A DNA stretch of 64,000 bases from an uncultured Pelagibacteraceae bacterium (GTDB lineage: Bacteria; Pseudomonadota; Alphaproteobacteria; Pelagibacterales; Pelagibacteraceae), in NCBI GenBank assembly GCA_902524115.1, contig CABZCA010000001.1, forward strand, positions 1 to 64,000. The letters are read 5' to 3'. Under the pieces are notes generated by a model. That model made no database searches. It was not told the DNA's origin and was given only the letters and a program-made list of their open reading frames with translations. Below, one piece after another: positions 15,448 to 49,798 of the stretch. A program made the position numbers and the translations under genes. Position 1 is the stretch's first letter, and each line of letters opens with the position of its first letter.

Positions 15448-15486
15448 TAATAATTATTCTACGAATTATTTATTAACTATCAATAA

Positions 15487-16806
15487 CTATTTCTTTTTTA
15501 TACCTGGCACCCAGCTAGTTCCTGCCAAGGGAACTCTAGCCATTGCAGCGGCTTCAACAGTTAATGCACATAAATCTTCTGGTTCTAAGTTGTGAAGACT
15601 ATTTTTTCCACATGCTCGTGCAATAGTTTGTGCTTCTAAAGACATAACCTTTAAATAATTTGATAATTTTCTACCTGCTTTTTTTGGATCTAATCTTTTC
15701 ATTAGCTCTGGTTTCTGAGTTGAAATTCCTGCAGGATCATTTCCCTCATGCCAGTCGTCGTACGCTCCTGCTTTACTTCCAAGTTTTTCATATTCTTTTT
15801 CCCATTTCGGATCATTATCACCAATTGCAATCATGGCCGCACTCCCAATTGATACTGCATCTGCTCCTAACGCAAGAGCTTTAGCTACATCTGCACCATT
15901 TCTAATTCCACCTGAAATTATAAGCTGAACTTCTCTATGAGAATTTAAATCTTGCAAAGCATCTACAGCAGGTCTTATGCAAGCTAAAGTTGGTTGACCA
16001 ACATTTTCAATAAATACTTCTTGTGTTGCTGCTGTACCACCTTGCATACCATCCAAGACAACAACATCTGCTCCAGCTTTTACAGCTAATGCTGTATCAT
16101 AATATGGTCTTGCTCCAGCAATTTTTATAAATATTGGAACTTTCCATTTAGTAATTTCTCTTAATTCTAAAATTTTTATTTTTAAATCATCTGGACCAGT
16201 CCAGTCAGGATGACGGCACGCAGATCTTTGATCAATACCTTTTGGTAGAGTTCTCATTTCTGCAACACGATCATCTATTTTTTGTCCAAGCAACATTCCA
16301 CCGCCACCTGGTTTTGCACCTTGTCCAATTACCACTTCAATTGCATCTGCTTTTCTTAAATCATTTGGGTTCATCCCATATCTTGAGGGCAAAAGTTGAT
16401 AAACTAAATTTTTGGATTGACCTCTTTCCTCTGGTGTCATTCCTCCATCACCTGTTGTGGTAGATGTTCCTGCTGCACTTGCTCCTCTTCCTAATGCCTC
16501 TTTAGCTGGACCAGACAATGCTCCAAAACTCATACCAGCAATCGTAATTGGAATATCAAGCTCTAATGGTTTTTTTGCATATTTTGTTCCCAAAGTTACA
16601 TTTGTAGTACATTTTTCCCTATATCCTTCTAAAGGATATCTAGACATTGAAGCACCTAAAAATAATAAATCATCAAAATGTGGAAGCCTTCTTTTAGAAC
16701 CACCACCCCTAATATCATAAATTCCAGTCTCAGCGGCTCTTCTTATTTCAGAGTTAGTATACTCATCAAAGGTCCAGGATTGACGAGGTAGAGTTTTATT
16801 TTTCAT
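15487..16806 (-). CDS. mgsC: N-methylglutamate synthase subunit C (FMN glutamate-synthase domain)
   Basis: This 439-residue protein corresponds to the FMN-binding central domain of the large glutamate synthase subunit as a free-standing polypeptide. Barrel motifs include G-M-S-F-G-A-L-S near 90, G-G-G-M-L-L-G, F-I-K-I-A-G-A-R, V-V-L-D-G-M-Q-G-G-T-A-A-T, and the phosphate site G-G-I-R-N-G-A-D-V-A-K-A-L-A-L-G-A-D-A. In MgsABC it transfers methylamine from gamma-glutamylmethylamide to a 2-oxoglutarate-derived acceptor. Where glutamate synthases have three cluster-binding Cys before G-I-S-T-Q, this copy has Y-D-D-W-H-E-G-N-D-P-A and no Cys, so the [3Fe-4S] cluster appears to be lost. It follows mgsB after two bases. 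Confidence 0.88.
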   Translation of the reverse strand: MKNKTLPRQSWTFDEYTNSEIRRAAETGIYDIRGGGSKRRLPHFDDLLFLGASMSRYPLEGYREKCTTNVTLGTKYAKKPLELDIPITIAGMSFGALSGPAKEALGRGASAAGTSTTTGDGGMTPEERGQSKNLVYQLLPSRYGMNPNDLRKADAIEVVIGQGAKPGGGGMLLGQKIDDRVAEMRTLPKGIDQRSACRHPDWTGPDDLKIKILELREITKWKVPIFIKIAGARPYYDTALAVKAGADVVVLDGMQGGTAATQEVFIENVGQPTLACIRPAVDALQDLNSHREVQLIISGGIRNGADVAKALALGADAVSIGSAAMIAIGDNDPKWEKEYEKLGSKAGAYDDWHEGNDPAGISTQKPELMKRLDPKKAGRKLSNYLKVMSLEAQTIARACGKNSLHNLEPEDLCALTVEAAAMARVPLAGTSWVPGIKKK

Positions 16807-16808
16807 AA

Positions 16809-17489
16809 TTAATAGTTAGATACATTATCAATATTAAAATTATATAGTTTTCTTGCAGAACCATACCTTTTAAATTGTTCAGGCTTAATATTTGATCCAG
16901 CCTTTTTTAAAAGCTCTTTTAATTTTGTCTTATGTTTTTTACTCATTTTTTTTTCCTCACAATCAGCTCCTAAAGATTTTACTTTCCCTTTTACATATAT
17001 GTCAGTTTCATACAAACTATCACCTAATGCTTCGCCAGCATTGCCACAAACAACTAGATTTCCAGATTGTGCCATAAATGCTGACATATGACCAACAGAG
17101 CCTTTTACTATTATATCAATACCTTTCATTGAAATTCCACATCTTGAACTTGCATCACCATCAATAATTAATGTTCCACCATGAGCAGTTGCTCCTGCAG
17201 ATTGTGATGCATTTCCCTTTACATGAACTTTTCCAGACATCATATTTTCAGCAACACCAGTACCCACGTTTCCATCGACTATTATATTTGCATTTTGGTT
17301 CATTCCTGCACAATAATATCCTACGTGTCCTTTGATGGTTACGTCAATATTTTCTGTAAGACCTGCACAGATAGCATGATTACCCTCAGGGTTTGATATA
17401 ACAAAATCTCTTTTATTTTTTTTTCGATCAATATTTTGAAGCTTTTCATTCACAGATCTTAATTTTAATTTTTTTAAATCAAGTATCAT
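16809..17489 (-). CDS. mgsB: N-methylglutamate synthase subunit B (GXGXG domain)
   Basis: About 226 residues form a right-handed beta-helix of the glutamate-synthase C-terminal type, with repeated G-x-x-G-x-x-x turns such as N-V-G-T-G-V-A-E-N-M-M-S-G and M-K-G-I-D-I-I-V-K-G. In glutamate synthase this domain has a structural, inter-domain role. I place the start at the ATG at 17489, which shares a base with the amidotransferase stop (TAATG). A TTG twelve bases earlier would add four residues but gives a less typical junction. The C-terminal tail after the helix is Lys-rich and ends in R-K-L-Y-N-F-N-I-D. Confidence 0.85.
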   Translation of the reverse strand: MILDLKKLKLRSVNEKLQNIDRKKNKRDFVISNPEGNHAICAGLTENIDVTIKGHVGYYCAGMNQNANIIVDGNVGTGVAENMMSGKVHVKGNASQSAGATAHGGTLIIDGDASSRCGISMKGIDIIVKGSVGHMSAFMAQSGNLVVCGNAGEALGDSLYETDIYVKGKVKSLGADCEEKKMSKKHKTKLKELLKKAGSNIKPEQFKRYGSARKLYNFNIDNVSNY

Positions 17490-18367
17490 TATTTTTCCCA
17501 AGAATAAACAATGCCTGGTTCAGGTTCAAAAATTTTTGCATTATTTACATTTGGTAAATGTGCCATCGCTTGAAACTCTGATGAAATTGCTACATAGTCT
17601 TTTGTTTCAGCGATAACAGCAGGCTTGCATGCAATCTCATCTCTTAGAACTGCAAAACCACTATGTGTTCCTGCAATAAAAGTATAAAATCCATCCAGAT
17701 CGCTTAAACCTTTATTTAATGTTTGTTTTAAATTTCTTTTTTTTAAACTATCTGAAATATAACCAGCTGCTACTTCAGTATCATTATCAGAATTAAATAT
17801 AGAACCATTTTTTTTTAATTTTCTTCTTAGATTATTATGATTAGATAAAGATCCATTATGCACTAAGCATTCATCTTCACCTGTAGAGTAGGGGTGAGAG
17901 CCGTTTGTTGTAATTGCACTTTCTGTTGCCATTCTCGTATGACCAATCGCATGAGTTCCGGAAAAATTATCTAAATTAAATTTTTTCACAACATTGCTTG
18001 GACTTCCAACTTGTTTAAATATTTCAATTGATTTCCCGTAACCAACTAGTGATATTTCCACAAAACTCTCTAAAATAGGGAGAATTTTGTTAGGTTTTTC
18101 AATAGATTTTAAAATTATGTGGTCAGAATTCTTTTCAATGTTTGTAAAATTCAATTTTTTTTTAATTTCTTTTTTGAATTTTTCGAAACTCATTTCATTT
18201 AAACAAATAGAATATTTATAAATTTTATTTTTATCACTGTTATAAATTGCAAAACCTGCACTATCAGGACCCCTAGACTCCATACTGACTAACATTTTAG
18301 AAAGCATTTCCCCTAAGGATTTTTCAAATTTTTTAGATTTTAGATAAATTCCAACGATGCCACACAT
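17489..18367 (-). CDS. mgsA: N-methylglutamate synthase subunit A (class II glutamine-amidotransferase domain)
   Basis: This 292-residue protein begins M-C-G-I-V-G, exposing Cys2 as the N-terminal nucleophile of class II (Ntn) amidotransferases after Met removal. Further family blocks are R-G-P-D-S-A-G-F-A near 34, G-H-T-R-M-A-T-E near 142, H-P-Y-S and V-H-N-G-S-L-S-N-H near 170, and N-D-T-E-V-A-A. In MgsABC this subunit would cleave the gamma-glutamyl amide and channel methylamine to the FMN subunit. It starts nine bases after a 51-residue microprotein gene and is coupled to mgsB. Confidence 0.87.
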   Translation of the reverse strand: MCGIVGIYLKSKKFEKSLGEMLSKMLVSMESRGPDSAGFAIYNSDKNKIYKYSICLNEMSFEKFKKEIKKKLNFTNIEKNSDHIILKSIEKPNKILPILESFVEISLVGYGKSIEIFKQVGSPSNVVKKFNLDNFSGTHAIGHTRMATESAITTNGSHPYSTGEDECLVHNGSLSNHNNLRRKLKKNGSIFNSDNDTEVAAGYISDSLKKRNLKQTLNKGLSDLDGFYTFIAGTHSGFAVLRDEIACKPAVIAETKDYVAISSEFQAMAHLPNVNNAKIFEPEPGIVYSWEK

Positions 18368-18579: not shown

Positions 18580-18816
18580 TTAACCTTCCGTTATATTACT
18601 TTTCCAAGCATTAGAACTAGGTTTTCTTCTAGCGAGTTTTTCAAGTTTATCGCTTTCTTGCCTAGAACTTATAACCGTCCAGCCAATCCAAATTATAACA
18701 AGTATTATAACTAAGATACCTTCAGATCCAGCGCCTGGAAATATTGGTCCAGCAGCACCACCTTCTGCTTTACTAGCAGCAGTTAAATGATCTATCCAAT
18801 TATTTACTGTAGCCAT
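18580..18816 (-). CDS. 78-residue single-span membrane protein downstream of amt
   Basis: The gene has a strong Shine-Dalgarno (AAAGGAGG) seven bases before its ATG. The product starts with a polar segment containing G-G-A-A-G-P-I-F-P-G-A-G-S, has one hydrophobic helix at about 33-49 (I-L-V-I-I-L-V-I-I-W-I-G-W), and ends in a basic tail with R-R-K-P-S-S. I do not recognise the family. It directly follows the Amt gene by 11 bases, and no PII (GlnK) gene, the usual Amt partner, is present in this window. An Amt-associated role is inference only. Confidence 0.7.
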   Translation of the reverse strand: MATVNNWIDHLTAASKAEGGAAGPIFPGAGSEGILVIILVIIWIGWTVISSRQESDKLEKLARRKPSSNAWKSNITEG

Positions 18817-18827
18817 GTTTTCCTCCT

Positions 18828-20228
18828 TTAACTACTTGAAGAAGCAACAGCTTTTTCATCTTCTTTTGCCTCCTCCATTATTTGATAGTCCAATCCTGCT
18901 AACTCAACTTCTCTTGGTATACGTAGTTTGCCCATACCATTAAGAACTTTAGCAATAATCCAACCAGGAATCATTCCAAGCACAAAAAACATTATTAATG
19001 CACCAATAAACATCCCTAATGGATTAATAGCAGCATATGTAGATCCATCCCACATTGCACCAACACTGTAACCTGATGAAGGATATCCATTTAGGACAAA
19101 CCCACAAATTACAAGACCAGCAAAGCCTGCATAACCATGAACTGCAACAGCTCCAACTGCATCATCAATTTTGAACTTACGTTCAACCCAATAATGTAGT
19201 TTGTAAGCTATAACTACCCCGATCATACCAATAATTAATGATTGAATTGGATGATAAAGATCGTTTCCTGCTGAAGCACATATTATTCCAGCTAGTCCAC
19301 TTGAGTATGTCCAGAAAGGATCACCTTTTGATATTACGTAACCAGCTAACAATCCTCCTGATAATGACATCAAGAAGTTCATAGTTATTCCACTTAATGT
19401 CGTTGGAGTGTAGTATATGTTAGTAGCAGTAAAGAAAGTTACACCTTCCATTCCATATTCAGGCCCTAAGTCATAAATTGGAACATTACAAGCCGCGTAG
19501 AAACCCCAAAAACCTGTATAAATTAAGAATAATCCAACAGTTACTAACCAAGGATTTCTTGGTCCAATGTTTCTAGGTTCACCACTTGATGAAAATTTTC
19601 CAATTCTTGGACCTAATACAGCAAGCACACCTAAAGCAAATCCTCCTGCTACAGCGTGAATTACCCCCGATGCATATGCATCATGATATCCAAGTATTTT
19701 TAACATCCACCCATCAAAGTGCCATCCCCATGCAGCATCTATACTCCAAAATACTGATCCAATTGCAATGGCAAGAATTCCAAATGCAAAAGTTGTTATT
19801 CTTTCAATAACTGCACCTGATACTATTGAAGCAGCTGTCCAGGAGAATAAAAGGAACGCTGCCCAAAATACTCCCATGATGTGATCGTTAAGCGTAATAG
19901 CCATAAACTCGTTTGTGGGATTAGCTAAATCATTTGCACCAAATCCACCTCCGAGAACAAGCCCAGTACTTTCTGTCATTATTGATGGAGCTAATCCAGG
20001 TCCTGTTGGAAAAGCCCAATATATCCACCAACCAAATAAAAACCAAGTTACCGTTACCAAAGGTATCAGCATTGTATTTTTCATTAATGTATGTTGATGG
20101 TGTTTGTAACGCGATGCTCCAACTTCATACATACAAAATCCTACATGGATAAGAAACATAAGTACTACTGTTATCCAATAGTAAAATTCTGTAAATATGG
20201 TTTGTAACGCATCAATTTGACTAGTCAT
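18828..20228 (-). CDS. amt: Amt-family ammonium (possibly methylammonium) transporter
   Basis: This 466-residue polytopic protein of about 11 membrane helices belongs to the Amt/MEP/Rh family, which conducts ammonium across the inner membrane. Family features include G-F-C-M-Y-E-V-G-A near residue 30, the H-A-V-A-G-G-F-A-L-G twin-His region near 190, and V-A-V-H-G-Y-A-G near 360. The extracytosolic loop near residue 70 differs from canonical AmtB. The gene has a good GGAGG ribosome-binding site. Being placed ahead of mgsABC-gmaS, it may carry methylammonium or recapture ammonia released by the pathway. The C-terminus ends in a short acidic and Ser-rich tail. Confidence 0.9.
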   Translation of the reverse strand: MTSQIDALQTIFTEFYYWITVVLMFLIHVGFCMYEVGASRYKHHQHTLMKNTMLIPLVTVTWFLFGWWIYWAFPTGPGLAPSIMTESTGLVLGGGFGANDLANPTNEFMAITLNDHIMGVFWAAFLLFSWTAASIVSGAVIERITTFAFGILAIAIGSVFWSIDAAWGWHFDGWMLKILGYHDAYASGVIHAVAGGFALGVLAVLGPRIGKFSSSGEPRNIGPRNPWLVTVGLFLIYTGFWGFYAACNVPIYDLGPEYGMEGVTFFTATNIYYTPTTLSGITMNFLMSLSGGLLAGYVISKGDPFWTYSSGLAGIICASAGNDLYHPIQSLIIGMIGVVIAYKLHYWVERKFKIDDAVGAVAVHGYAGFAGLVICGFVLNGYPSSGYSVGAMWDGSTYAAINPLGMFIGALIMFFVLGMIPGWIIAKVLNGMGKLRIPREVELAGLDYQIMEEAKEDEKAVASSSS

Positions 20229-20359: not shown

Positions 20360-20767
20360 CTAAAATTTTCTGTATGCTTTTTTTAGATCTACCAAAGGAT
20401 GATTTGGAGACATTTGAAACTTAATCAACAACTCTCTTGCTATCATGTCTCTGTCTTGCTGGTTGTTTGGTAATTTAATTTTTTTTGGAATTGTGACCCA
20501 ACCATTTGCATTTCTATCAAACACTGCTGGTCTATCTTCTTCATATCCCATGTGAACATCTTCCAACCAATTTAAATCATCCCAACCCATTGCTTCAATA
20601 TATTTTTTTAAGAATGGAGTAATCCTTGAATAGTCTGGTAATAAATTTACATCATACCTATAACCAATGGTTTGACCTATCATCTTTTCTCGAGCGGTCT
20701 CTTTTTTTTTACCTAACTGACCTTTGACTGTTTTTTTGCTCGATTTTTTATTTTTTTTCTTTGGCAT
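20360..20767 (-). CDS. 135-residue protein of unknown function ending the second synthetase module
   Basis: I do not recognise this protein. Residues 1-25 are extremely Lys-rich, as in nucleic-acid-binding or ribosome-associated tails. The rest is a soluble mixed helix/strand segment with Y-R-Y-D-V-N-L-L-P-D-Y, M-G-W-D-D-L-N-W-L-E-D-V, D-R-N-A-N-G-W-V-T-I-P and a C-terminal helix. No Cys, signal peptide or membrane segment is present. It begins two bases after the second FMN-domain gene, so it is very probably part of that operon and may be a subunit or assembly factor of the complex. The left (mgs) module has no counterpart. Confidence 0.65.
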   Translation of the reverse strand: MPKKKNKKSSKKTVKGQLGKKKETAREKMIGQTIGYRYDVNLLPDYSRITPFLKKYIEAMGWDDLNWLEDVHMGYEEDRPAVFDRNANGWVTIPKKIKLPNNQQDRDMIARELLIKFQMSPNHPLVDLKKAYRKF

Positions 20768-20769
20768 AA

Positions 20770-22164
20770 TTATATTTTATGAAAATCGTCGACTCCTACC
20801 GTATGATTTGTACCAGAAAGAGGTACTTTTGCTAAAGCAGATGCTTCCATTGTTAAAGCTGCCATATCTTCTGGCTCTAATGAATGGATATTTGTTTTAC
20901 CACAAGCTCTAGCTAATAACTGAGCTTCTAACGTCATGGTATGTAAGTAATTATATACTCTAAGAGCTGCTTCATCTGGATTTAGTCTTTTCCTTAACTT
21001 AGGATCTTGAGTAGCAACACCAACTGGGCAACGACCAGTATGACAGTGATAACAATGACCTGCTGGCACTCCCATTTCTTTTTCAAAATTAGACTCTGGA
21101 ATTTCTTTATTACAGTTTAGTGCAATCATAGCTCCAGTACCTATAGCGATAGCATCTGCTCCAAGAGCTAGTGCTTTTGCCATATCGGCTCCATCTCTAA
21201 CACCACCTGCATAAATAAGAGTAACTTTACCAGTCTTTCCAACATCATCTATTGCTCTTCTTGCTTCTCGAATTGCGGCTATTCCAGGTATACCCGTGTT
21301 TGCTGCTGCGATGTGTGGACCAGCACCTGTTGAGCCTTCCATACCATCTAGATAAATAGAGTCAGGATCACATTTTGCTGCCATACGAACATCATCATAA
21401 ACTTTTGCTGCTCCAAGTTTTAATTGTATTGGAACTTTATTTTTTGTTAACTCTCTTAGCTCTTGAACTTTTAAAGCTAAGTCATCTGGTCCTAACCAAT
21501 CAGGATGTCTTGCAGGAGATCTTTGATCAATACCAGCTGGTAATGATCTCATCTCTGCTACTTGGTCAGTAACTTTTTGACCCATCAAGTGTCCACCCAT
21601 TCCAACTTTTTGACCTTGACCAATGAACACTTCAATTCCATCAGCAAGCTGTGCATGATGAGGATTAAATCCATATCTTGATTGAATACATTGATAGTAC
21701 CATTTTTCTGAGTATCTTCTTTCATCAGGTATCATTCCACCTTCACCCGAACATGTTGCACTACCTGCCATAGTTGCACCTCTTGCAAGTGCTGTTTTTG
21801 CTTCATACGATAAAGCTCCAAAACTCATACCTGTAATATAAACTGGTATATCTAATTCAACTGGGTTTTCACATCTTGGACCAATGATGGTTTTTGTCTC
21901 ACACTTTTCTCTGTAACCTTCAATTACAAATCTTGTAAGGGTACCAGGTAAAAAAACTAAATCGTCAAACGTAGGAATTTTTTTCATTAGAGCCATACCT
22001 CTCATTCGGTATCTTCCTAACTGAGCTTTAATATGAATGTCGTCTATTACTTCAGGTGTAAATATAGCGTTATAACCTAGTAAACTTTTATTTCTTTTTG
22101 AGAATTCACTTCCACCATTACCATTGGAATGTCCGTTTGATTTTCCGTTTTTTTTCTTTGCCAT
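20770..22164 (-). CDS. Second FMN glutamate-synthase-domain protein (mgsC/GlxD-like paralogue)
   Basis: This 464-residue protein is a paralogue of the mgsC product, with matching barrel motifs: G-M-S-F-G-A-L-S, G-M-G-G-H-L-M-G-Q-K-V, Y-L-D-G-M-E-G-S-T-G-A-G and G-G-V-R-D-G-A-D-M-A-K-A-L. Unlike mgsC it retains a cysteine cluster, C-Y-H-C-H-T-G-R-C-P-V-G, at about residue 375, expected to hold a [3Fe-4S] cluster as in glutamate synthase. The N-terminus carries a Gly/Asn/Ser-rich extension. Its ATG overlaps the stop of the GXGXG gene (TAATG). It probably produces glutamate or an N-substituted glutamate from a gamma-glutamyl amide; the substrate is unknown. Confidence 0.82.
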   Translation of the reverse strand: MAKKKNGKSNGHSNGNGGSEFSKRNKSLLGYNAIFTPEVIDDIHIKAQLGRYRMRGMALMKKIPTFDDLVFLPGTLTRFVIEGYREKCETKTIIGPRCENPVELDIPVYITGMSFGALSYEAKTALARGATMAGSATCSGEGGMIPDERRYSEKWYYQCIQSRYGFNPHHAQLADGIEVFIGQGQKVGMGGHLMGQKVTDQVAEMRSLPAGIDQRSPARHPDWLGPDDLALKVQELRELTKNKVPIQLKLGAAKVYDDVRMAAKCDPDSIYLDGMEGSTGAGPHIAAANTGIPGIAAIREARRAIDDVGKTGKVTLIYAGGVRDGADMAKALALGADAIAIGTGAMIALNCNKEIPESNFEKEMGVPAGHCYHCHTGRCPVGVATQDPKLRKRLNPDEAALRVYNYLHTMTLEAQLLARACGKTNIHSLEPEDMAALTMEASALAKVPLSGTNHTVGVDDFHKI

Positions 22165-23018
22165 TAAATTGCTCCTTTTTTCTCAGTTGGTTCTAAAGCG
22201 TCGTAATTCCAGAGTTTTTTACCTGCAACTACTTTTGTCATCTTTGAAATATCAAAATTTTCGCCAATTTCAGCGACTTTAAGTTTTCTTTTAATCCAAT
22301 CTATATCACTTTTTGTCATAGGTGACTCAATCGCATCACTTCCAAATGATCCAATTTTTCCACCCACATAAATAGTTCCATCGTACATAGAGTCCCCAAG
22401 GTTTATACCAACATTACCTAAAATTATTATTCTACCTCTTTGCATCATAAATCCAGTGAATGCTCCAGCGTCACCACCAACGATAATTGTTCCACCTTTT
22501 TGATCAATTCCTGTTCTAGCACCAACGCTACCTTTGCATATTAAATCTCCACCTCTAACTGCTGCACCAAAACATGATCCTGCATTTTTTTCTATTACTA
22601 CTTTTCCTGCCATCATGTTTTCTGCACACGACCATCCAACTCTACCATTAATTCTTACTGTTGGACCATCAATAGAACCAACGCCAAAATAACCCAAACT
22701 TCCTTCAAATATTAAATTCAATTTATTCAACACTCCAACACCTAAACTATGTTTTCCTTGTGGGTTCTTTATAACTATTGTTCCATAACCTTGACTCATA
22801 AGCTCATCAATTTTTTTGTTTGCCTCTTTGCAATCTAGATCATTTACATCAAGATCAATTCTTTTATTAAAATCTACATCATAAGTTCCCCAATAATAAA
22901 AGTTCTCTGCTTCATCTGGATTGAAAAATTTTTGTTGTGTTTTTCCTGTTAAGACTTCACTGTGAAGTCCCATTGATTGGGCTTTAGTTTTATTCTCGTT
23001 AGTTTTTATATTTGCCAT
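22164..23018 (-). CDS. Second GXGXG-domain protein (mgsB/GlxC-like paralogue)
   Basis: This 284-residue protein has the same right-handed beta-helix as mgsB (for example G-R-V-G-W-S-C-A-E-N-M-M-A-G-K-V and R-G-R-I-I-I-L-G-N-V-G). It carries an N-terminal extension of about 50 residues with N-P-D-E-A-E-N-F-Y-Y-W-G-T-Y-D-V-D. Its ATG lies inside the last codons of the amidotransferase gene, a 13-base overlap, so the two subunits are translationally coupled. The longer N-terminus separates this module from the left one and may contact a different partner. Confidence 0.82.
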   Translation of the reverse strand: MANIKTNENKTKAQSMGLHSEVLTGKTQQKFFNPDEAENFYYWGTYDVDFNKRIDLDVNDLDCKEANKKIDELMSQGYGTIVIKNPQGKHSLGVGVLNKLNLIFEGSLGYFGVGSIDGPTVRINGRVGWSCAENMMAGKVVIEKNAGSCFGAAVRGGDLICKGSVGARTGIDQKGGTIIVGGDAGAFTGFMMQRGRIIILGNVGINLGDSMYDGTIYVGGKIGSFGSDAIESPMTKSDIDWIKRKLKVAEIGENFDISKMTKVVAGKKLWNYDALEPTEKKGAI

Positions 23019-23947
23019 ACTTTTACCTCTCCATCAAAAGGATCGTAAGTGTCAATTTCGTGGGGCAATATAGATCTTATTGCTATTTCCTCAGATCCCA
23101 TTGCAACCAAATCATCGGACTCGTATAGAACTAATGGTTTAGCTGCCATCGTATCTTTTGCCATTCCTAAAGAATCTTTTGTTGCTACAAAATAAGTAAA
23201 TACACCATCTAATCCTGATAAACTGTCTTTCATACCTTCTTCTAATGTTGCTCCATTTCTCATTTTCTCTGCTAAATAAACAGCTATCAGCTCAGAATCA
23301 CACTCAGACATAAATCTCATGCCTTTATTCTCTAACACTCTTCTATTATTCCAGTAATTTGTTAATTGACCATTATGCACAACTGAAACATCGCTAAAAG
23401 GATATCCCCAAAAAGGGTGAGCAGATTTGATATCTACACCTGACTCAGTTGCCATTCTAGCATGACCTATAGCGTGAGTTCCTCTCACTTTGCCAAGATC
23501 ATATCTGTCTAAAACCTCCTGAGCGTCTCCTAAATCTTTTATTAGTTCAAGAGATTTTCCAATGGATAATATTTCAACACTTTCGATACTCTCAATTTTC
23601 TTTGAAAAATCCATTAAATCCTCGTCGTATTGCATTTCGTATCTATAAGAGTAGGGGGTTAATTTTTTTTCTTTTAATACTTTTGCACCAAGACTTTTTA
23701 ACATCTGATCAACAAGCTCTTTTCTTTTGTCATAAACACTCTCGTCTTCATTTATAGAAGAACTACCTTCACCGACATTTTCTCCAACTTTAAATCTCAT
23801 TATAAAGTTTTGACCATCGTTATCTGCATAAAGAGCATAACCTGTTGAGTCAGGTCCTCTATGCTTTAAGGCCTGAAGCATTGCTTGTAATTCATTTCCT
23901 ACGTTAGAGGATTTTCCCCTATGGATAAGACCAGCTATTCCGCACAT
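23006..23947 (-). CDS. Second class II amidotransferase-domain protein (mgsA/GlxB-like paralogue)
   Basis: This 313-residue protein starts M-C-G-I-A-G with Cys2 as the presumed nucleophile. It keeps R-G-P-D-S-T-G-Y-A near 33, G-H-A-R-M-A-T-E near 166, H-P-F-W-G and V-H-N-G-Q-L-T-N-Y near 190, and E-C-D-S-E-L-I-A-V. It should release an amine or ammonia from a gamma-glutamyl amide for the FMN subunit. A good ribosome-binding site (AAGGAG) precedes the ATG. It lies 22 bases after the synthetase gene, whose product presumably makes its substrate. Confidence 0.83.
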   Translation of the reverse strand: MCGIAGLIHRGKSSNVGNELQAMLQALKHRGPDSTGYALYADNDGQNFIMRFKVGENVGEGSSSINEDESVYDKRKELVDQMLKSLGAKVLKEKKLTPYSYRYEMQYDEDLMDFSKKIESIESVEILSIGKSLELIKDLGDAQEVLDRYDLGKVRGTHAIGHARMATESGVDIKSAHPFWGYPFSDVSVVHNGQLTNYWNNRRVLENKGMRFMSECDSELIAVYLAEKMRNGATLEEGMKDSLSGLDGVFTYFVATKDSLGMAKDTMAAKPLVLYESDDLVAMGSEEIAIRSILPHEIDTYDPFDGEVKVWQI

Positions 23948-23969
23948 ATTTCTCCTTAACTAAATTTGT

Positions 23970-25439
23970 CTATGGTAGGCAATCCAAATAAGTATCTAGA
24001 TCCCATTGAGTTGTTGCACCTAAAAATCTTTCCCACTCATCGTTTTTATACCAATGAAATATTTTATACATCTCATCTGGCATTGCGGATTGAATAACTT
24101 TGTCATCTGCTAAACGATCTAAAGCCTCACCAAGACTTAAAGGTAATTTTTTTACATTTTTTCCAGCCTTTTGAGCTTCATAAATATTTCTAGACTCGGG
24201 TTTTCCTGGATCTATTTTATTAGATATTCCATCATCGAAAGCTTTTAATAAACCTGCACCCATTAAGTATGGGTTATGCATTGAGTCTACAGATCTATAT
24301 TCAAACCTACCTGGGGCTGAAACTCTTAATCCACAGGTTCTATTTTGATAACCCCAATCAGCATAAACTGGTGCCCAAAAACCTTGATCCCATAATCTTC
24401 TATATGAGTTAACCGTTGATGATCCAATTGCAGTTAATGCACCTAGATGTTTCATTACTCCACCAATAGATTTTAAACCAACTTTACCTGGTAACTGAAC
24501 ATCTTTTGTATCAGGCATAAAAGTGTTAGTTCCACCTTCTACATAAGTAAATACTTCATCCATGCCTGGTAAAGATTTGTGACCCAATTTATTTACCTTA
24601 TCTTTTCCACCTGTCCATAAAGACATATTGGTATGACAACCACTAGCTGATACTCCCATAAAAGGTTTTGTCATAAAACATGCAATTAAATTAAATTCTC
24701 TTGCAACTTGAGCGCAAATTTGTCTGTAAGTAGATAATCTATCTGCATTTCTTAAAACATCATCATACATCCAGTTTAACTCTAGTTGTCCAGGGGCATC
24801 TTCATGGTCACCTTGAATCATGTCAAATCCCATAGCTCTTGCATATTCCATTACTCTCATAAATACAGGTCTTAAAGACTCGAATTGATCTATGTGATAA
24901 CAATATGGTTTAGAAAAACCCTTACCAGTTGGAGTTCCATCATCGTTTCTAGTCAACCACATCATTTCTGGTTCAGTTCCAACTCTTAGTTGGTAACCAT
25001 GTTTTTTCTTAAATTCTTTTGCAATAATTCTTAAATTACCTCTGCAATCTGATGTTAAGTGACCACCTGGATTTTCTCTTTCTTCTCTATTTCTAAAACA
25101 AGTTACAAAAACTCTCGCAACTTTTTTATCCCAAGGTAGTTGGCAAAAAGTTTCAGGATCTGGTATTCCAACCAATTCTTTAGCCTCCGGACCATATCCT
25201 ATATAATTATTATGACGATCTAAGAATAAATTAGCAGTTGCTCCATAAACTAATTGAAAACCTTTTTCGCATGTTCTTTCCCAATGATCTGCAGGAATTC
25301 CTTTACCAACAACTCTTCCTGTTACTGAAATGAATTGAAAAAAAATATAATCAATTTTTAGTTCATTTATTTTAGCTCTAACTTGTTTAACTAGTTTGGC
25401 TCTACCCGGTTGATTAACATGTTTCTCTAGATCAGTCAT
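23970..25439 (-). CDS. Second glutamine-synthetase-like ligase of unknown amine specificity
   Basis: This 489-residue protein is a glutamine-synthetase homologue distinct from gmaS and about 50 residues longer. Active-site blocks are present: R-V-G-T-E-P-E-M-M near 178, G-D-H-E-D-A-P-G-Q-L-E-L-N-W near 236, G-C-H-T-N-M-S-L-W near 290, N-S-Y-R-R-L and R-F-E-Y-R. The amine-binding region differs from both canonical GlnA and GmaS, so the ligated amine could be ammonia, an alkylamine or another primary amine. It has a strong AGGGGG ribosome-binding site. It heads the second split glutamate synthase genes and follows a FAD oxidoreductase, which suggests one pathway. Confidence 0.83.
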   Translation of the reverse strand: MTDLEKHVNQPGRAKLVKQVRAKINELKIDYIFFQFISVTGRVVGKGIPADHWERTCEKGFQLVYGATANLFLDRHNNYIGYGPEAKELVGIPDPETFCQLPWDKKVARVFVTCFRNREERENPGGHLTSDCRGNLRIIAKEFKKKHGYQLRVGTEPEMMWLTRNDDGTPTGKGFSKPYCYHIDQFESLRPVFMRVMEYARAMGFDMIQGDHEDAPGQLELNWMYDDVLRNADRLSTYRQICAQVAREFNLIACFMTKPFMGVSASGCHTNMSLWTGGKDKVNKLGHKSLPGMDEVFTYVEGGTNTFMPDTKDVQLPGKVGLKSIGGVMKHLGALTAIGSSTVNSYRRLWDQGFWAPVYADWGYQNRTCGLRVSAPGRFEYRSVDSMHNPYLMGAGLLKAFDDGISNKIDPGKPESRNIYEAQKAGKNVKKLPLSLGEALDRLADDKVIQSAMPDEMYKIFHWYKNDEWERFLGATTQWDLDTYLDCLP

Positions 25440-25506
25440 ATTCCCCCTTAAGAATTTTTAGACCAAAAAGTTAACTGAAAAAAAAACATCTGTCTACTTA
25501 GATAAA

Positions 25507-26832
25507 TTAGCTCCAAGGAAATGGACTATTAGATGTTGGGTGTAATTCACCTTTCTCGTAACGGTTGAATCTAAAAGGTTTTAATAAATCACTTTCGGTT
25601 CCAAGAATTTCTTTTGCGACAAGCTCCCCAACTCCAATCATTTTATAACCATGGTTAGAGTCTGCTATCATGTAAACGTTTTCTAAAAATCTATCAAAAA
25701 TTGGAAAAGAGTCTGGCGTCATACATCCAAGTCCCCCGGAAGGTCCTTTTCTATATAAATCTGATTTTCCTTCAAATCTTTTTTGACAATGAGCTAACGC
25801 TGAACACCACATATCATTAAAAGCTTCTGTTGTCTGATATTCAGGGGACTCTATTCCATATGGATCAACGTTTACTTGATCAAAATGTTTATCAACTATG
25901 TAAGGTGAAGTTCCACCTTGGACGCCGAGTCCTTCAATATCTGGTTTATAATATATTCCCCAAATTTTATCCGTTAATAATTTTTTAGTTTTATCTGAGT
26001 ATAATGGTGCCGTTGAGTCCACATGAATTACAGGTGGCTGTTCACCGTTATCCATTTTTAAAAAATCTGGTTCTACACCAAGTACACCTTCTTGAAGCAT
26101 CCAATATTTCCACATATCAGTTTCATGCATCTTGCCGTCTTTATCTTTTATATTTGCAGTTTTAGGAAGCTCTAACATATTCCAAAAATCTCTAGCCCAA
26201 GGTCCAGCACCAACAACAACTTGTTCGCACTCTATTGTACCTTTGTCTGTTTCAACTCCTGTAACAGCTTTACTGTTGCTTCCTCTTTTAAAACCTGTAA
26301 CTTTTACACCTTTAAATACTTCGACACCATTTGAGGTAGACTTATCTTCAAGTGCTCTAATAGAATCTTTGTTAAATGCGTATCCACCTTTTTTTTCATG
26401 AAGAACAGAAGTTATACCTTGTGCTTGCCAGTCTCCAAACATACCTTTCATATATTTCATGCAATCTTTTTCACCTTCTATAAATTCAGACTCGTAACCA
26501 ATTGCTTTTTGTTGTTCATAAATAGTTGCAACATCTGCATGCATTACTTCAGGTGAAATCTGTAAATAACCAACTGCATTATATTTAAATGCTTTAGGAT
26601 CACTTTCCCAAACTGAAACAGAATGAGCCATTAATTCTCTCATTGCAGGCTGAAAATAATTATTTCTTACCACACCACAGGCAATTCCACTTGCTCCTGC
26701 TGCGGTATCTTTTTTTTCTAATACAACAATATCACCTGGATTTTTATAAGTTTCGGAAAGTTTCCAAGCAGTACTAAGACCGTGAATTCCTCCTCCAACG
26801 ATTACTACTTTGGCTTTTGTCGGTAATGACAT
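25507..26832 (-). CDS. FAD-dependent amine/amino-acid oxidoreductase (DadA/SoxB-like)
   Basis: This 441-residue protein has an N-terminal Rossmann motif V-V-I-V-G-G-G-I-H-G-L-S near 10-21, an E-K-K-D dinucleotide-binding end of strand 2, and V-V-G-A-G-P-W-A-R. The C-terminal G-C-M-T-P-D-S-F-P-I-F-D and D-S-N-H-G-Y-K-M-I-G-V-G blocks are typical of the DAO family, including sarcosine oxidase beta and D-amino-acid dehydrogenase. It lacks the covalent-FMN His motif seen in the SoxB/MgdA-like protein at 48.3 kb. The gene sits immediately upstream of the second synthetase, so it may oxidise the N-substituted glutamate that module makes, or generate the amine. Membrane attachment is not evident. 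Confidence 0.82.
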   Translation of the reverse strand: MSLPTKAKVVIVGGGIHGLSTAWKLSETYKNPGDIVVLEKKDTAAGASGIACGVVRNNYFQPAMRELMAHSVSVWESDPKAFKYNAVGYLQISPEVMHADVATIYEQQKAIGYESEFIEGEKDCMKYMKGMFGDWQAQGITSVLHEKKGGYAFNKDSIRALEDKSTSNGVEVFKGVKVTGFKRGSNSKAVTGVETDKGTIECEQVVVGAGPWARDFWNMLELPKTANIKDKDGKMHETDMWKYWMLQEGVLGVEPDFLKMDNGEQPPVIHVDSTAPLYSDKTKKLLTDKIWGIYYKPDIEGLGVQGGTSPYIVDKHFDQVNVDPYGIESPEYQTTEAFNDMWCSALAHCQKRFEGKSDLYRKGPSGGLGCMTPDSFPIFDRFLENVYMIADSNHGYKMIGVGELVAKEILGTESDLLKPFRFNRYEKGELHPTSNSPFPWS

Positions 26833-26929: not shown

Positions 26930-27280
26930 TTAAAAGCTTAAATTTTTAAGAGTAGACAAATAGTCGTTAAATTCCTCAATAAACGATACACTTGGTTTTA
27001 TATGTTTTTTTCTTTGATCTTCAGCAGTTTTTTCTAAATAAAAAAAACCTTTTTCACATGCTTCATTAATTATTAATGCAGATTTTGGTCTAGAGGTTTT
27101 AAATAATTTAGTTTTAAGCTCCTCAACTGACAAATTTTGTTTTTGCTTAAATGCTGACATAACTAGAAGCATCATATGATAATGAGAAGGCGATTTTCTA
27201 AAAAAATAGTTACTTGATGTATGCGAAAGCTTCATTTGATCTTCCCAAAACTCTAACAAATCCTTAGTTGATTTAGCCAT
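26930..27280 (-). CDS. Small MarR-like winged-helix regulator next to tdm
   Basis: The 116-residue protein looks like a winged helix-turn-helix. The presumed recognition-helix region is T-S-R-P-K-S-A-L-I-I-N-E-A near 67-79. It is followed by a wing F-F-Y-L-E-K-T-A-E-D-Q-R-K-K-H-I-K-P-S resembling the D-x-R motif of MarR proteins. The helical N-terminus could dimerise. Its start shares a base with the tdm stop, so it is translated with tdm and may control the tdm/tmoX divergent region. It is shorter than typical MarR (about 140), and DNA binding is inferred from pattern only. Confidence 0.6.
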   Translation of the reverse strand: MAKSTKDLLEFWEDQMKLSHTSSNYFFRKSPSHYHMMLLVMSAFKQKQNLSVEELKTKLFKTSRPKSALIINEACEKGFFYLEKTAEDQRKKHIKPSVSFIEEFNDYLSTLKNLSF

Positions 27281-29619
27281 TAAGATCTTACTTTAGTTTT
27301 CTTTGGATCATAATGAGGAAATCCAACAATTTTTGCAGGAATTCTCTTTTGATGTCCATCTATCTTTCCAATTTCAACATCATTACCTATTTCTGAGTGA
27401 CCTACATCTATTCTACATAATGCAATATTTTTATTTAAAGTCGGAGAAATGCATCCACTGGTTATAATGCCAACTTGAGATCTTCCAATATGAACGCAAT
27501 CCCCATGATTTGCTATCTCTTTACCAATGAGCTCTAGTCCTACAAGTTTTTTTTGAGGATTTTCTTTTCTTTTAATTAAATTTTCTCTTCCAATAAAATC
27601 TTCTGTTTTGGATTTTAATGGAACAGAAAATCCAATGCCAGCTTCAAACGGATCTTGTTGTCCATCAAATTCATTACCAAATAAAATTAAACCAGCTTCA
27701 ATTCTTAAAAGATCCAAAGCCGCAAAACCAGCTGGTATCAGACCTTCATGTTTTCCTGCTTCCATTACTTTATCCCAAACTGTAGGAGCATCACTTGGAT
27801 GACACCAAATTTCAAAACCAAGTTCACCAGTATAACCTGTTCTTGAAACAATTAATGGTATTCCGTTTAATTCTTCCAATCGACAAATTGTAAATCTAAA
27901 CCATTCCAATTCAGATATGGAAGGTTGGGTAGGTGGGGTAAAAATTATTTTTTCTAGAATTTTTCTACTTTTGGGACCTTGTAAAGATAAATTATTTATT
28001 TGATCAGTAGAATTTTTGATATGAACTTTGTAATTTTTTTTCTTCGCTTGTTCTTTAAGCCACTCACCTCCATATTCATCACCACAAACCCATCTAAAAC
28101 CATGATCACTAAGTTTTAATAATGTTCCATCATCAAACATGGTTCCATTTTCATAACACATTGCTGAGTAAACAATTTGACCAACTGAAAGTTTTTTTAC
28201 ATTTCGTGTTAATGTATAGTTCATTAATTCTTCAGAGTCTGGTCCAAGAATTTCAAACTTTCTCAACGAAGATAAGTCAATTAGTACTGCATCTTCTCTG
28301 CATGCATTGTATTCATTAATTACCCCATGTTTTGTATAATCATTTGGTAACCAAAAACCTCTAGCATCGACAAAGTTTCTAGTTAATTTTGATGTTCTCT
28401 CATAGAAACCAGTATTTCTTGTAAGTTTATTTTCTGCATCTGTTTTCATTCTAAAACCATATGATTTTGTAAACTCTTTGCTTTTTTCGTAAGTTCTAAC
28501 AAAAATATCGGTAGGGTTCCATCCATTACAGCTATCAATATCGCTAGGGCATGCAGTTGTTCCACATGTTAAATCTTTTAACGCTTTGAAAATGACGTAA
28601 TCTCCAGGCCTTGCATAAGATTCATCAGATGTAACAGAATTTTGACCTCCAGAAGATGTATTAAAAAAAAGATTGATCGCATGCCAACCTTTTTTTTCTT
28701 CGACGCCGTACATTTTCATTGAATCATTTAAATTGTCAGAGCAATTTGCATGACCAAAATATCCAGAATCTTCGTAGTACTTTGAGGTACAAGCTAAATT
28801 AAATGTATCATGTATACCTACAGTATCTCTAATAACTTCTACCAGTGGCTCATGATCAGTATCATAAAATTTTGAAAATAAACCAGGACCTGGAAAAGTA
28901 TTTCCCATAAAAGTTCTAGTCGTTTGCCAATCAAGACCTCTCTCTATACCTTTTTCTAATTTTGCCGTGTCGTACGCAACGAAATCTGAACATTGTCTTC
29001 CTGTTGGTGTAATTATTTGAATATAGTCCCCAGCCTTAACTTGATATCCTGTTGCAGTTTTTCTATCTATATTAACTTCATAGTCAGGATCGTAAATTGG
29101 ATCAGGGATTATTGAAAATTCTTTTTCAGAATTTTTAATTTTTGCTCTTTTAACTAATACGGTCAAATCTGAAGGTGGATTTTGATCATGAATAAGCATA
29201 TCGTTCCCAGGAGCAGCAAAGATACAATAACAATTATCTTTTGCATTTAGAGTTATTTTTTCCCCAGCAATAGTATTTTTATCAAAGAGAATTGATGAGG
29301 TAGCTTTTTCAATTTGCAAATTTCTTTTTTTTAATTGTAGTAATGCTTGCAAAGAACTTTCCTCTTTTTTCAAAAGTATTTTTTTTATTGCAGATGAATT
29401 TTTATTTTCTTTTAAATTTAAAATTCCTAATTCTGGTCGTCCGTTTTTGTCAAAAATATTTATTTCGCAAATTTGATTTCCCTCATTATTTAATATTTCA
29501 ATTTCATCATCAGGAAATATTTGTATACCTGTAATTCCACCTGCATTGACAACATATCTTTCAACCCCAGGTGGTAATACGTTTAAACCAGGTTCTTTAA
29601 TACTTAAACTTGTTTGCAT
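27280..29619 (-). CDS. tdm: Trimethylamine N-oxide demethylase
   Basis: This 779-residue fusion has a unique N-terminal part, a DUF1989-like domain (about 190-390) and a C-terminal GcvT/aminomethyltransferase-type domain (about 410-775). This is the architecture of Tdm, which splits TMAO to dimethylamine and formaldehyde and can pass the formaldehyde to tetrahydrofolate. A zinc-type Cys cluster C-G-T-T-A-C-P-S-D-I-D-S-C is visible near 355-367 with G-H-A-N-C upstream. The GcvT part keeps L-S-L-Q-G-P-K-S, S-R-T-G-Y-T-G-E-L-G-F-E and the R-I-E-A-G helix. It diverges from tmoX, the TMAO-binding protein gene, across a 145-base region, which strongly supports the assignment. Confidence 0.92.
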   Translation of the reverse strand: MQTSLSIKEPGLNVLPPGVERYVVNAGGITGIQIFPDDEIEILNNEGNQICEINIFDKNGRPELGILNLKENKNSSAIKKILLKKEESSLQALLQLKKRNLQIEKATSSILFDKNTIAGEKITLNAKDNCYCIFAAPGNDMLIHDQNPPSDLTVLVKRAKIKNSEKEFSIIPDPIYDPDYEVNIDRKTATGYQVKAGDYIQIITPTGRQCSDFVAYDTAKLEKGIERGLDWQTTRTFMGNTFPGPGLFSKFYDTDHEPLVEVIRDTVGIHDTFNLACTSKYYEDSGYFGHANCSDNLNDSMKMYGVEEKKGWHAINLFFNTSSGGQNSVTSDESYARPGDYVIFKALKDLTCGTTACPSDIDSCNGWNPTDIFVRTYEKSKEFTKSYGFRMKTDAENKLTRNTGFYERTSKLTRNFVDARGFWLPNDYTKHGVINEYNACREDAVLIDLSSLRKFEILGPDSEELMNYTLTRNVKKLSVGQIVYSAMCYENGTMFDDGTLLKLSDHGFRWVCGDEYGGEWLKEQAKKKNYKVHIKNSTDQINNLSLQGPKSRKILEKIIFTPPTQPSISELEWFRFTICRLEELNGIPLIVSRTGYTGELGFEIWCHPSDAPTVWDKVMEAGKHEGLIPAGFAALDLLRIEAGLILFGNEFDGQQDPFEAGIGFSVPLKSKTEDFIGRENLIKRKENPQKKLVGLELIGKEIANHGDCVHIGRSQVGIITSGCISPTLNKNIALCRIDVGHSEIGNDVEIGKIDGHQKRIPAKIVGFPHYDPKKTKVRS

Positions 29620-29675: not shown

Positions 29676-29704
29676 TATATATACATTTGTATCTATTTTG
29701 CTGG

Positions 29705-29733
29705 TTGACTGTAACTTTAATAGAGGGGATACT
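29705..29733 (+). promoter_or_regulatory. Sigma-70-type promoter of tmoX
   Basis: TTGACT (29705-29710) and GATACT (29728-29733) are separated by exactly 17 bases and lie about 30-55 bases before the tmoX ATG. A purine-rich ribosome-binding site (AAGGAAAGGG) precedes that ATG. This arrangement excludes a longer tmoX reading frame that would begin upstream of the -35 box. Confidence 0.7.
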
Positions 29734-29764
29734 TTATTCACTTAATATTAAGGAAAGGGAAATA

Positions 29765-30718
29765 ATGAAAAAAATAATATCTCTATTATCAGCTATGGTG
29801 ATATCTCTAGTAAGTTTTGCAGGGATTTCAAACGCAGCAGATAGTAAAAAACCAATTGTTATCCCAACTCATAACTGGTCAAGCCAAATTGTAATGGCTT
29901 ACGTAATTGGCGGTATTTTTGAAAGTATGGGGAACAATGTAAAATATGTAAATGCTGACTCGCAAGCAGTTTATGAGTCGATTAGAATTGGTGATGTAAC
30001 TATATCTCATGAAGTATGGGAATCTGCATTCGGAAAATCATTCACAACTGCTTTAGATAAAGGTGGTTTATTAGATATGGGTGATCACGAAGCTAGAACT
30101 CTTGAGGATATGGGATATCCAAACTGGGTTGTAGAAAAAGGCTTATGCCCAGGTCTACCAGACTGGACTGCATTAAAAAATCCTGATTGTGCGAAAAATT
30201 TCACAACACCTGATTCACCAGATGGAAAAGGTAGAATGTTAGAAGGACCACAAACATGGCATGGAGATTTAATACCTCAAAGAGTTGATGCTCTTGGATT
30301 AGGCGATCTTTGGTGGGTTAAATTTGCAGGAAGTGCAGATGCACTTTGGGCAGAGTTAGCTGCAGCTAAAAAAGAAGGAAGAGGAACTATCATATTTAAC
30401 TGGACACCAAACTTTACAGATGGTGCTGGTTTTACATTTATCGACTTCCCTCCATACACAGCTGGTTGTAGACCAGAAGATGGTGGAGATGGAAAATGTG
30501 GTTCTCCGGATGGTTATTTGAAAAAAGCAGCACATGAAGATTTTCCAAAAACTCATCCAGCAGCTGCAAAAACGTTTAAAAAAATGTCATTCTCTACAAG
30601 TCAAATTGGAGCAATGGCAGCTTTAGTTGATGTCGACAAAATGACTCACGAAGATGCAGCAAAAAAATGGTTAGCTGACAATAAGAGTGTGTGGGAAGAA
30701 TTCACACACGATCATTAA
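29765..30718 (+). CDS. tmoX: TMAO-binding periplasmic protein of the TmoXWV ABC importer
   Basis: This 317-residue precursor has a clear Sec signal peptide (M-K-K-I-I-S-L-L-S-A, cleavage likely after S-N-A near residue 24). A glycine-betaine/proline-type binding domain (OpuAC/ProX) follows, with H-N-W-S-S-Q-I-V-M-A-Y-V-I-G-G and W-E-S-A-F-G. Its place opposite tdm, together with an OpuA-type ATPase and permease nearby, identifies it as TmoX, which captures TMAO in the periplasm. I chose the ATG at 29765 because it has the signal peptide, the ribosome-binding site and the promoter. A strong terminator follows, suggesting TmoX is made in excess of the membrane subunits. Other quaternary amines remain possible ligands. 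Confidence 0.9.
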   Translation: MKKIISLLSAMVISLVSFAGISNAADSKKPIVIPTHNWSSQIVMAYVIGGIFESMGNNVKYVNADSQAVYESIRIGDVTISHEVWESAFGKSFTTALDKGGLLDMGDHEARTLEDMGYPNWVVEKGLCPGLPDWTALKNPDCAKNFTTPDSPDGKGRMLEGPQTWHGDLIPQRVDALGLGDLWWVKFAGSADALWAELAAAKKEGRGTIIFNWTPNFTDGAGFTFIDFPPYTAGCRPEDGGDGKCGSPDGYLKKAAHEDFPKTHPAAAKTFKKMSFSTSQIGAMAALVDVDKMTHEDAAKKWLADNKSVWEEFTHDH

Positions 30719-49528: not shown

Positions 49529-49798
49529 ATGCTCTATATATTCTGTCCACATTGTGGATCAAGATCACAGAATGAGTTTGCTTATGGTGGAGATGCAACA
49601 GTAAAACGACCAGAGCTTAATAAGGAAGTTAGTGACCAAGAGTGGGATAATTTTGTTTATTTAAGAAAAAGCCCTAGAGGAAAACATCTAGAGTTATGGC
49701 ATCATATATCTGGCTGTAGACAATGGATAAAAGTTGAAAGAGACACATCAACTCACGAAATTTTTAAAACTTATAAAGCAGATGAACTAACTGAATAA
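49529..49798 (+). CDS. mgdB: N-methylglutamate dehydrogenase / sarcosine oxidase delta subunit
   Basis: This 89-residue protein is a SoxD-type subunit. The early C-P-H-C-G pair near residues 6-9 and the H-H-I-S-G-C-R-Q-W segment near 63-71 form the zinc-binding Cys/His set of the family. The subunit is structural in the heterotetramer. It begins immediately after the beta-subunit stop and overlaps the alpha-subunit start by one base. Confidence 0.88.
   Translation: MLYIFCPHCGSRSQNEFAYGGDATVKRPELNKEVSDQEWDNFVYLRKSPRGKHLELWHHISGCRQWIKVERDTSTHEIFKTYKADELTE

Follow-up and report, generated by a model that had tools for sequence, protein, structure and literature searches.

A five-gene cassette of the N-methylglutamate type as a candidate for the dimethylamine step of SAR11 bacteria

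The first 64,000 nucleotides of contig CABZCA010000001.1 from an uncultured Pelagibacteraceae bacterium, hereafter the window, carry five adjoining genes, here termed GlnT2-GlxD2-GlxC2-GlxB2-U135 or the cassette, which on balance we take to serve the dimethylamine (DMA) step in the breakdown of trimethylamine (TMA) and trimethylamine N-oxide (TMAO) in bacteria that lack Dmm, the oxidase step being left open. DMA as the substrate of the cassette, an assignment resting on gene context, appears fairly probable; the intermediates as written below follow from inferred chemistry and are put forward tentatively. SAR11 is reported to possess genes for TMA, TMAO and methylamine but no dmmDABC, and the missing DMA step is read as a bottleneck at which DMA may accumulate and be lost to the atmosphere (PMC5520151). 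HTCC1062 nonetheless grows when TMAO is its only nitrogen source, for which a DmmDABC isoenzyme of unknown identity has been proposed (PMC8918994). SAR11 is very abundant in the ocean and DMA is a common marine amine: the cassette offers a concrete candidate for this gap.

Together with a neighbouring oxidase gene, the cassette forms six contiguous minus-strand open reading frames (ORFs) at 20360-26832, encoding 135, 464, 284, 313, 489 and 441 amino acids (aa), with neighbours that overlap by up to 13 bases or stand up to 67 bases apart. GlnT2 (23970-25439, 489 aa) carries a Gln-synt_C domain and is an amine:glutamate ligase of the glutamine synthetase (GS) fold, proposed here as a gamma-glutamyl-dimethylamide synthetase. 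It is followed by GlxD2 (23006-23947, 313 aa), a class II glutamine amidotransferase (GATase) domain (PF13522/PF13537) with an N-terminal Met-Cys-Gly, by GlxC2 (22164-23018, 284 aa), the GXGXG domain of glutamate synthase (PF01493), by GlxB2 (20770-22164, 464 aa), the flavin mononucleotide (FMN) domain of glutamate synthase (Glu_synthase, PF01645) with iron-sulfur (Fe-S)-type Cys 371, 374 and 379, and by U135 (20360-20767), a 135-aa member of an unnamed, strongly conserved family. The sixth gene (25507-26832, 441 aa) encodes a flavin adenine dinucleotide (FAD) oxidoreductase of the DAO family (PF01266), a proposed N,N-dimethylglutamate demethylase and optional member of the set. A first-pass annotation of the window had described six tightly packed genes with three free-standing glutamate-synthase domains, and both descriptions are confirmed. 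The parent assembly (G000) comprises 1.1 Mb in 38 contigs and is an estimated 80% complete.

The nature of GlnT2 was assessed in an active-site alignment numbered by RhGmaS, a GmaS with a crystal structure (PMC7948447), which contained 32 GlnT2 rows, nine GmaS rows and the GlnA of the same genome. K30', Y147, Q175, D177, E179, E186, N188, R312 and the flap Trp are found in 32/32 GlnT2 rows and 9/9 GmaS rows; GlnA has L, Y, K, H, E, E, G, R and a flap Glu at these positions. The catalytic aspartate of GS (Asp50' loop) and the flap glutamate, D and E in GlnA, are replaced by V and W in all 32 GlnT2 sequences, which rules out an ordinary GS; a separate GlnA-type gene lies on contig C5. GlnT2 differs from GmaS by insertions and by five positions constant in 32/32 rows, namely 48' (V), 174 (I), 176 (G), 231 (A) and 237 (N). 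In a tree of 72 rows, 47 GlnT2 sequences fall into one group (support 95/74) and 18 GmaS sequences into another (96/98), in line with the earlier claim of a non-GmaS synthetase; six GlnT2-like paralogues are placed beside the GlnT2 group. Likewise, GlnT2 is only 32% identical to GmaS, and with the type III GS model TIGR03105 it attains 297.1 bits, below the cut-off of 469.6, whereas the neighbouring GmaS reaches 621.9 bits and aligns to the crystallised RhGmaS with 573 bits. Because of these active-site residues and the separate tree group, GlnT2 is, judged by its sequence, a GmaS-type amine ligase but not a GmaS. As for the GlnT2-like paralogues (52-62%), those at L002, L003 and L107-L111 adjoin a second, very different GS-like gene, and two annotated paralogue loci carry P450, aldehyde dehydrogenase, ABC transporter or type 1 amidotransferase genes; these clusters are possibly other amine ligase pathways.

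GlxD2, GlxC2 and GlxB2, which with U135 would make up the Glx2 complex, resemble the N-methylglutamate synthase MgsABC in that each of the three glutamate-synthase domains has its own gene within a single operon, but they are not its orthologues: GlxB2, GlxC2 and GlxD2 are 50%, 37% and 32% identical to MgsC, MgsB and MgsA of Paracoccus aminophilus, as against 81%, 60% and 48% to those of pAMI6 for the true set of the window, whose GmaS is 53% identical. The cluster-type cysteine triplet is kept in 33/34 GlxB2 rows, the remaining row being gapped, and would fit an entry of electrons from outside; GlxB1, the MgsC of the window (15487-16806), has none of the three cysteines at those places. The difference in cluster chemistry noticed earlier thus stands within the window but not generally: the cysteines are lost in 10/14 MgsC-type proteins, the window's included, and kept in four, among them the G011 orthologue from the same genus, so that we rejected them as a strict distinction between GlxB2 and MgsC. 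The Met-Cys-Gly start is present in 29/34 GlxD2 gene calls. U135 has no match in Pfam or NCBIfam, and its AlphaFold model (mean predicted local distance difference test (pLDDT) 74) found no fold match among PDB structures with Foldseek (best E 1.6); it may be an extra subunit of Glx2. In an IMG/VR contig (L214, 4575-5342), a phage-like start is fused to the final part of GlxB2 and a complete U135, close to where the contig ends; this is probably an assembly chimera and not a virus-borne copy.

The cassette recurs far beyond the window. We used 147 Pelagibacterales genomes as an order sample and 337 alphaproteobacterial genomes as a class sample. U135 occurs in 68/147 and 29/337 of them, respectively, and its family counts at least 570 loci in genome contigs; the 135-aa protein, earlier thought unique, is therefore not. 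GlnT2 matches at E 1e-70 were obtained in 31/337 class genomes, of which all but G410 (a 63% copy in a different setting) are the 30 cassette genomes referred to below. Both genes occur together in 28 class genomes; G318 and G338 (84% and 64% complete) hold GlnT2 without U135. G373 (locus L105, 3658-9047) holds U135 without GlnT2: there a GmaS stands before GlxD2-GlxC2-GlxB2-U135, Mgd-like genes are near, and matches to Tdm, MgsC and the FAD oxidase are all absent. The order GlnT2-GlxD2-GlxC2-GlxB2-U135 is repeated in 34 fetched loci, some of which end at contig ends, and is conserved in other Alphaproteobacteria and in Gammaproteobacteria, a recurrence that is more than chance. Among the best 80 of the at least 570 U135 relatives (the named loci), many of them short, clustering found U135 in 80, GlxB2 in 77, GlxC2 in 72, GlxD2 in 65 and GlnT2 in 58; their titles include Ruegeria arenilitoris, Pseudaestuariivita atlantica, Roseovarius, Granulosicoccaceae, Thiotrichales and Arenicellales. 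Hence the genes are not scattered but co-conserved in related genomes, and the six-gene set of the first-pass annotation persists as five genes that travel together.

The setting of the cassette points to methylated amines: it sits between a producer of DMA and the methylamine genes. The former is a Tdm homologue (27280-29619, minus strand), a TMAO demethylase that combines DUF1989 with a folate-binding GCV_T domain (PF09347, PF01571), as expected of Tdm, and is 48% identical to Tdm of P. aminophilus. On the other side, an Amt of the ammonium-transporter family (18828-20228, minus strand, PF00909; just 24% identical to Amt of pAMI6) adjoins the cassette, followed by the GmaS, MgsC, MgsB and MgsA homologues that lead from methylamine to N-methylglutamate (14122-18367, minus strand). 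A search of the window with the four Dmm subunits of P. aminophilus found no DmmA, DmmB or DmmC, the sole match being a folate-domain similarity to DmmD, and PF11927 (DUF3445, DmmC) was not found in the genome G000. In P. aminophilus, whose dmm and tmm genes have been studied through mutation (PMC4543880), the annotated region contains Amt, a truncated haemoglobin, Tdm, a regulator, the DUF3445 protein, a PDR/VanB oxidoreductase, a DmmA family protein, an aminomethyltransferase, a permease and Tmm. Tdm lies near the cassette in 12/34 fetched and 34/80 named loci, a GntR/FCD regulator in 22/34 and 48/80, Amt relatives in 16/34 and 25/80, OpuAC-type proteins in 7/34 and 22/80 and Tmm-like proteins in 5/34 and 16/80; Fhs and Mgd-like genes are also among the neighbours in other genomes, and in several Rhodobacteraceae loci a Tmm-TmoX-Tdm run surrounds the cassette.

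Across genomes, the cassette accompanies Tdm and is separated from Dmm. In the Pelagibacterales, Tdm and U135 each occur in 68/147 genomes and both in 65 (U135 without Tdm: G030, G114, G129; Tdm without U135: G018, G049, G131). In the class sample, a Tdm match was counted if it had an E of 1e-60 or lower and included the N-terminal half, which yields 28 genomes; 19 weaker matches (E 1e-15 or better) were excluded, and G168 is partial. Twenty of these 28 have the cassette, five a true Dmm, three neither and none both. The five true-Dmm genomes (G304, G396, G453, G427, G234), each of a different coded family, encode a DUF3445 protein 66-74% identical to DmmC of P. aminophilus, while the 20 with cassette and Tdm span 11 coded families. 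Not counted as Dmm were PF11927 matches of 51 bits in the cassette genome G176, of 59 bits in G403 and, as a partial match, of E 1.7e-50 in G168. The separation within Tdm genomes has a p of 6e-4, which overstates independence because the genomes are related by descent. A second set of 50 further cassette genomes, drawn from the 80 named loci, contained a PF11927 protein in ten cases. However, these are 22-32% identical to five DmmC references and to P. aminophilus DmmC, and the references are 62-83% alike among themselves; true DmmC was thus found in 0/50, and PF11927 alone proved too broad as a Dmm marker. Tdm lay inside the fetched locus in 31/50 of this set. Among plasmid records, 139 carry Tdm and 147 DmmC, and the organism tallies, not matched record by record, are almost identical, at 95/95 for Rhizobium, 20/20 for Acinetobacter and 10/9 for Paracoccus; U135 was in none of the plasmid records.

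The gene identities, their conservation, the GmaS-type active site, the linkage to Tdm and the separation from Dmm, all read from sequence, are the ground for a putative route whose substrate, intermediates and roles of U135 and the oxidase are inferred. In the first step, GlnT2 would use adenosine triphosphate (ATP) to ligate DMA onto the gamma-carboxyl group of glutamate, yielding gamma-glutamyl-dimethylamide. Such a ligation is feasible, since RhGmaS forms the amide from DMA, albeit poorly with a Km of 16 mM (PMC7948447 Table 1). Next, GlxD2 would free DMA within the Glx2 complex, in which GlxB2 (FMN/Fe-S) together with GlxC2 and U135 would reductively fix it on 2-oxoglutarate to give N,N-dimethylglutamate; the reaction proposed for Mgs is a reductive methylamination of 2-oxoglutarate, with redox cofactors that were called unknown (PMC6237917). 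In the third step, one methyl group would be taken by the FAD oxidase or, in genomes without it, by a different dehydrogenase, to leave N-methylglutamate, and MgdABCD would finally take the second, releasing glutamate and a one-carbon unit for the folate pathway. G339 suggests that two methyl groups are removed: next to its cassette lie the FAD oxidase and Mgd-like genes (77/65/61%), and GmaS is absent from it. The role of the SoxB-like protein neighbouring the cassette in G413, also without GmaS, is less sure, as it is just 44% identical to MgdA. That SAR11 and many other Alpha- and Gammaproteobacteria break down the secondary amine DMA by a hitherto undescribed route without an oxygenase, from a glutamate amide made with ATP through N,N-dimethylglutamate to stepwise demethylation, is a possibility to which we lend a little less than even credence. 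No description of a dimethylglutamate or gamma-glutamyl-dimethylamide route was found among the titles and abstract starts listed for open-access papers.

Several observations weigh against this assignment. The amine specificity of GlnT2 is unreadable from the residues compared, as its amine-site residues are the same as those of GmaS. The co-occurrence of Tdm and U135 in the Pelagibacterales is largely that of one island, because 58 of the 65 shared cases lie within 15 kb (six are on different contigs, one is 30 kb apart); moreover, the samples share ancestry, so that counts are not independent, and many genomes are incomplete. Neither the cassette nor a true Dmm was found in the Tdm genomes G168, G403 and G478. 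Conversely, 10/30 class cassette genomes lack Tdm, and DMA would there need an outside source. Demethylation in step 3 is the least certain part of the route, because the oxidase is missing in some cassette genomes and present in G005 and G304, both without the cassette. It was found in 26/30 class cassette genomes (23 within the fetched locus, three elsewhere) and not in G217, G223, G338 and G455, all incomplete or fragmented, but in 0/20 genomes picked because their fetched locus had no copy, which rules against the oxidase as an obligatory part. A search of those 20 loci for a conserved neighbour able to take its place gave no clear candidate. G478 is listed as 100% complete and has GmaS and MgsC; another solution for DMA may exist there.

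Among the alternatives to DMA as substrate, a second methylamine route, in which GlnT2 would be an additional gamma-glutamylmethylamide synthetase and GlxDCB2-U135 an additional N-methylglutamate synthase, both duplicates of GmaS-MgsABC, for example with a different affinity, survives best, although we consider it unlikely. It could draw on the GmaS catalytic residues of GlnT2, on G373 with its GmaS in the place of GlnT2, and on the cassette genomes themselves, 9/30 of which lack GmaS while 10/30 have GmaS without an MgsC orthologue. The latter group and G373 suggest that Glx2 is able to make N-alkylglutamates, with the reservation that G227 and G433, two of the ten, hold a further GlxB-like gene. 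In G003, G020 and G090 (L106, L116, L115), GmaS lies beside Amt, MgsABC is not there and an MgsC orthologue is nowhere in the genome. However, 21/30 cassette genomes keep GmaS and 12/30 MgsC, the small genome studied here included, and a second methylamine route leaves the tie to Tdm and the separation from Dmm unexplained.

It is rather improbable that GlnT2 and GlxD2 only capture and deliver DMA to a GlxB2 that acts as a dimethylamine dehydrogenase, forming formaldehyde and methylamine for GmaS and Mgs. FMN/Fe-S trimethylamine and dimethylamine dehydrogenases would provide an analogy to GlxB2 with its FMN domain and three Fe-S-type cysteines. Yet the methylamine would meet no GmaS in the nine cassette genomes without it, including G232 and G339 (100% and 98% complete), and the ten with GmaS and no MgsC suggest, again apart from the extra GlxB-like gene of G227 and G433, that Glx2 makes N-methylglutamate there. 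We give similarly low credence to a different amine met alongside TMA and TMAO metabolism, or an unrelated amine in the genomes without Tdm: the ten such cassette genomes and the other clusters in which the nearest relatives of GlnT2 reside speak for it, the cassette/Dmm separation among Tdm genomes and the Tmm-TmoX-Tdm runs of the Rhodobacteraceae against it. A bypass of ammonium assimilation, as entertained in the first-pass annotation, here taken as an ammonium-scavenging GS/glutamate synthase unit coupled to the neighbouring Amt, is very improbable, since family resemblance and the frequent Amt relatives are outweighed by the missing GS aspartate and flap glutamate in 32/32 GlnT2 rows, the separate GlnA-type gene and a distribution that follows Tdm. 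The broader claim of a second module of amine ligase and synthase of an N-substituted amino acid, probably for another amine, is supported at the level of sequence, and the context points to DMA.

The remaining genes of the window complete the picture. Beyond Tdm follow a TmoX-like OpuAC-type binding protein for TMAO uptake (29687-30718, plus strand, PF04069; position and name per SAR11 literature), a homologue of the flavin monooxygenase Tmm that converts TMA to TMAO (36935-38263, minus strand, PF00743; 54% and 52% identical to Tmm1 and Tmm2 of P. aminophilus), the formate-tetrahydrofolate ligase Fhs (46467-48143, minus strand, PF01268) and homologues of MgdA, MgdB and MgdC (48272-52794, plus strand; MgdA and MgdC 60% and 41% identical to those of pAMI6, MgdB 43%), an N-methylglutamate dehydrogenase of sarcosine-oxidase type. 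A 116-aa protein without Pfam hits over cut-off (26930-27280, minus strand) is encoded between oxidase and Tdm, at the same place in four Pelagibacter-type genomes including this one; from its sequence, a small winged-helix regulator would be our guess. A 78-aa ORF (18580-18816, minus strand), also without a Pfam match, adjoins Amt and is one of the small proteins of 72-78 aa that stand beside Amt in 13/34 cassette loci (clusters of 7 and 6); we would guess at a one-helix membrane partner of Amt. Outside SAR11, the cassette is accompanied almost as regularly by u186, a family of 186 aa without a name, as by GlnT2 (13/34 and 56/80 loci, e.g. L080:15049-15609). The u186 family has no Pfam match, no copy was found in the window, and its confident model (pLDDT 88) gives only weak split-barrel flavin-type matches (best E 0.0015). 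Rfam yielded zero matches within the window at gathering thresholds.

The gene order of the window agrees with published SAR11 locus tags: 1302 is listed as a transporter, 1303 as an aminomethyltransferase, 1304 as a monomeric sarcosine oxidase, 1313-1315 as glxBCD and 1316 as glnT (PMC3160333), SAR11_1305 as glnT (PMC5069961), SAR11_1309 as hypothetical and SAR11_1310 as amt (PMC2704228). By position alone, SAR11_1306-1308 would be GlxD2, GlxC2 and GlxB2. One short list for sulfur-limited stationary cells contains both SAR11_1302 and SAR11_1305, with first-column ratios of 0.22 and 0.19 (PMC5069961), a hint of co-regulation. If the assignment to DMA is true, SAR11 and many other Alpha- and Gammaproteobacteria would process DMA through the cassette, the marine DMA bottleneck would not exist in the form described, and U135 and GlnT2 could serve as marker genes to re-estimate which marine bacteria consume DMA.

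Set beside known systems, GlnT2 has the Gln-synt_C domain of type III and type I GS, and its SAR11_1305 counterpart bears the name glnT, but it stays below the curated cut-offs and is without the GS aspartate and flap glutamate. The FAD oxidase has the DAO fold of SoxB and monomeric sarcosine oxidase, the name given to SAR11_1304, which a 2011 paper mentions together with SAR11_1303, with demethylation of unknown substrates as a possible role (PMC3160333). It lies far under the NCBIfam cut-offs (soxA_mon 42.4 versus 479.65 bits, soxB 79.2 versus 529.45 bits), and its closest solved chains match at E of about 1e-14 in the N-terminal half. With DmmDABC the cassette would share its step, between Tdm and the methylamine genes; it would however use ATP and not an oxygenase, and no DmmC orthologue was found in the cassette genomes compared. 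The closest likeness is to the N-methylglutamate pathway (GmaS, MgsABC, MgdABCD): GS-fold ligation to glutamate with the GmaS catalytic residues, three separate glutamate-synthase domains and, as the expected next step, oxidation of an N-methyl amino acid by a flavin dehydrogenase. It differs in that GlnT2 forms a distinct group with insertions and in that Glx2 has a 135-aa partner, keeps its cluster cysteines and is tied to Tdm. The cassette is best filed with the N-methylglutamate type of pathway, without being a member of GmaS, Mgs or Dmm.

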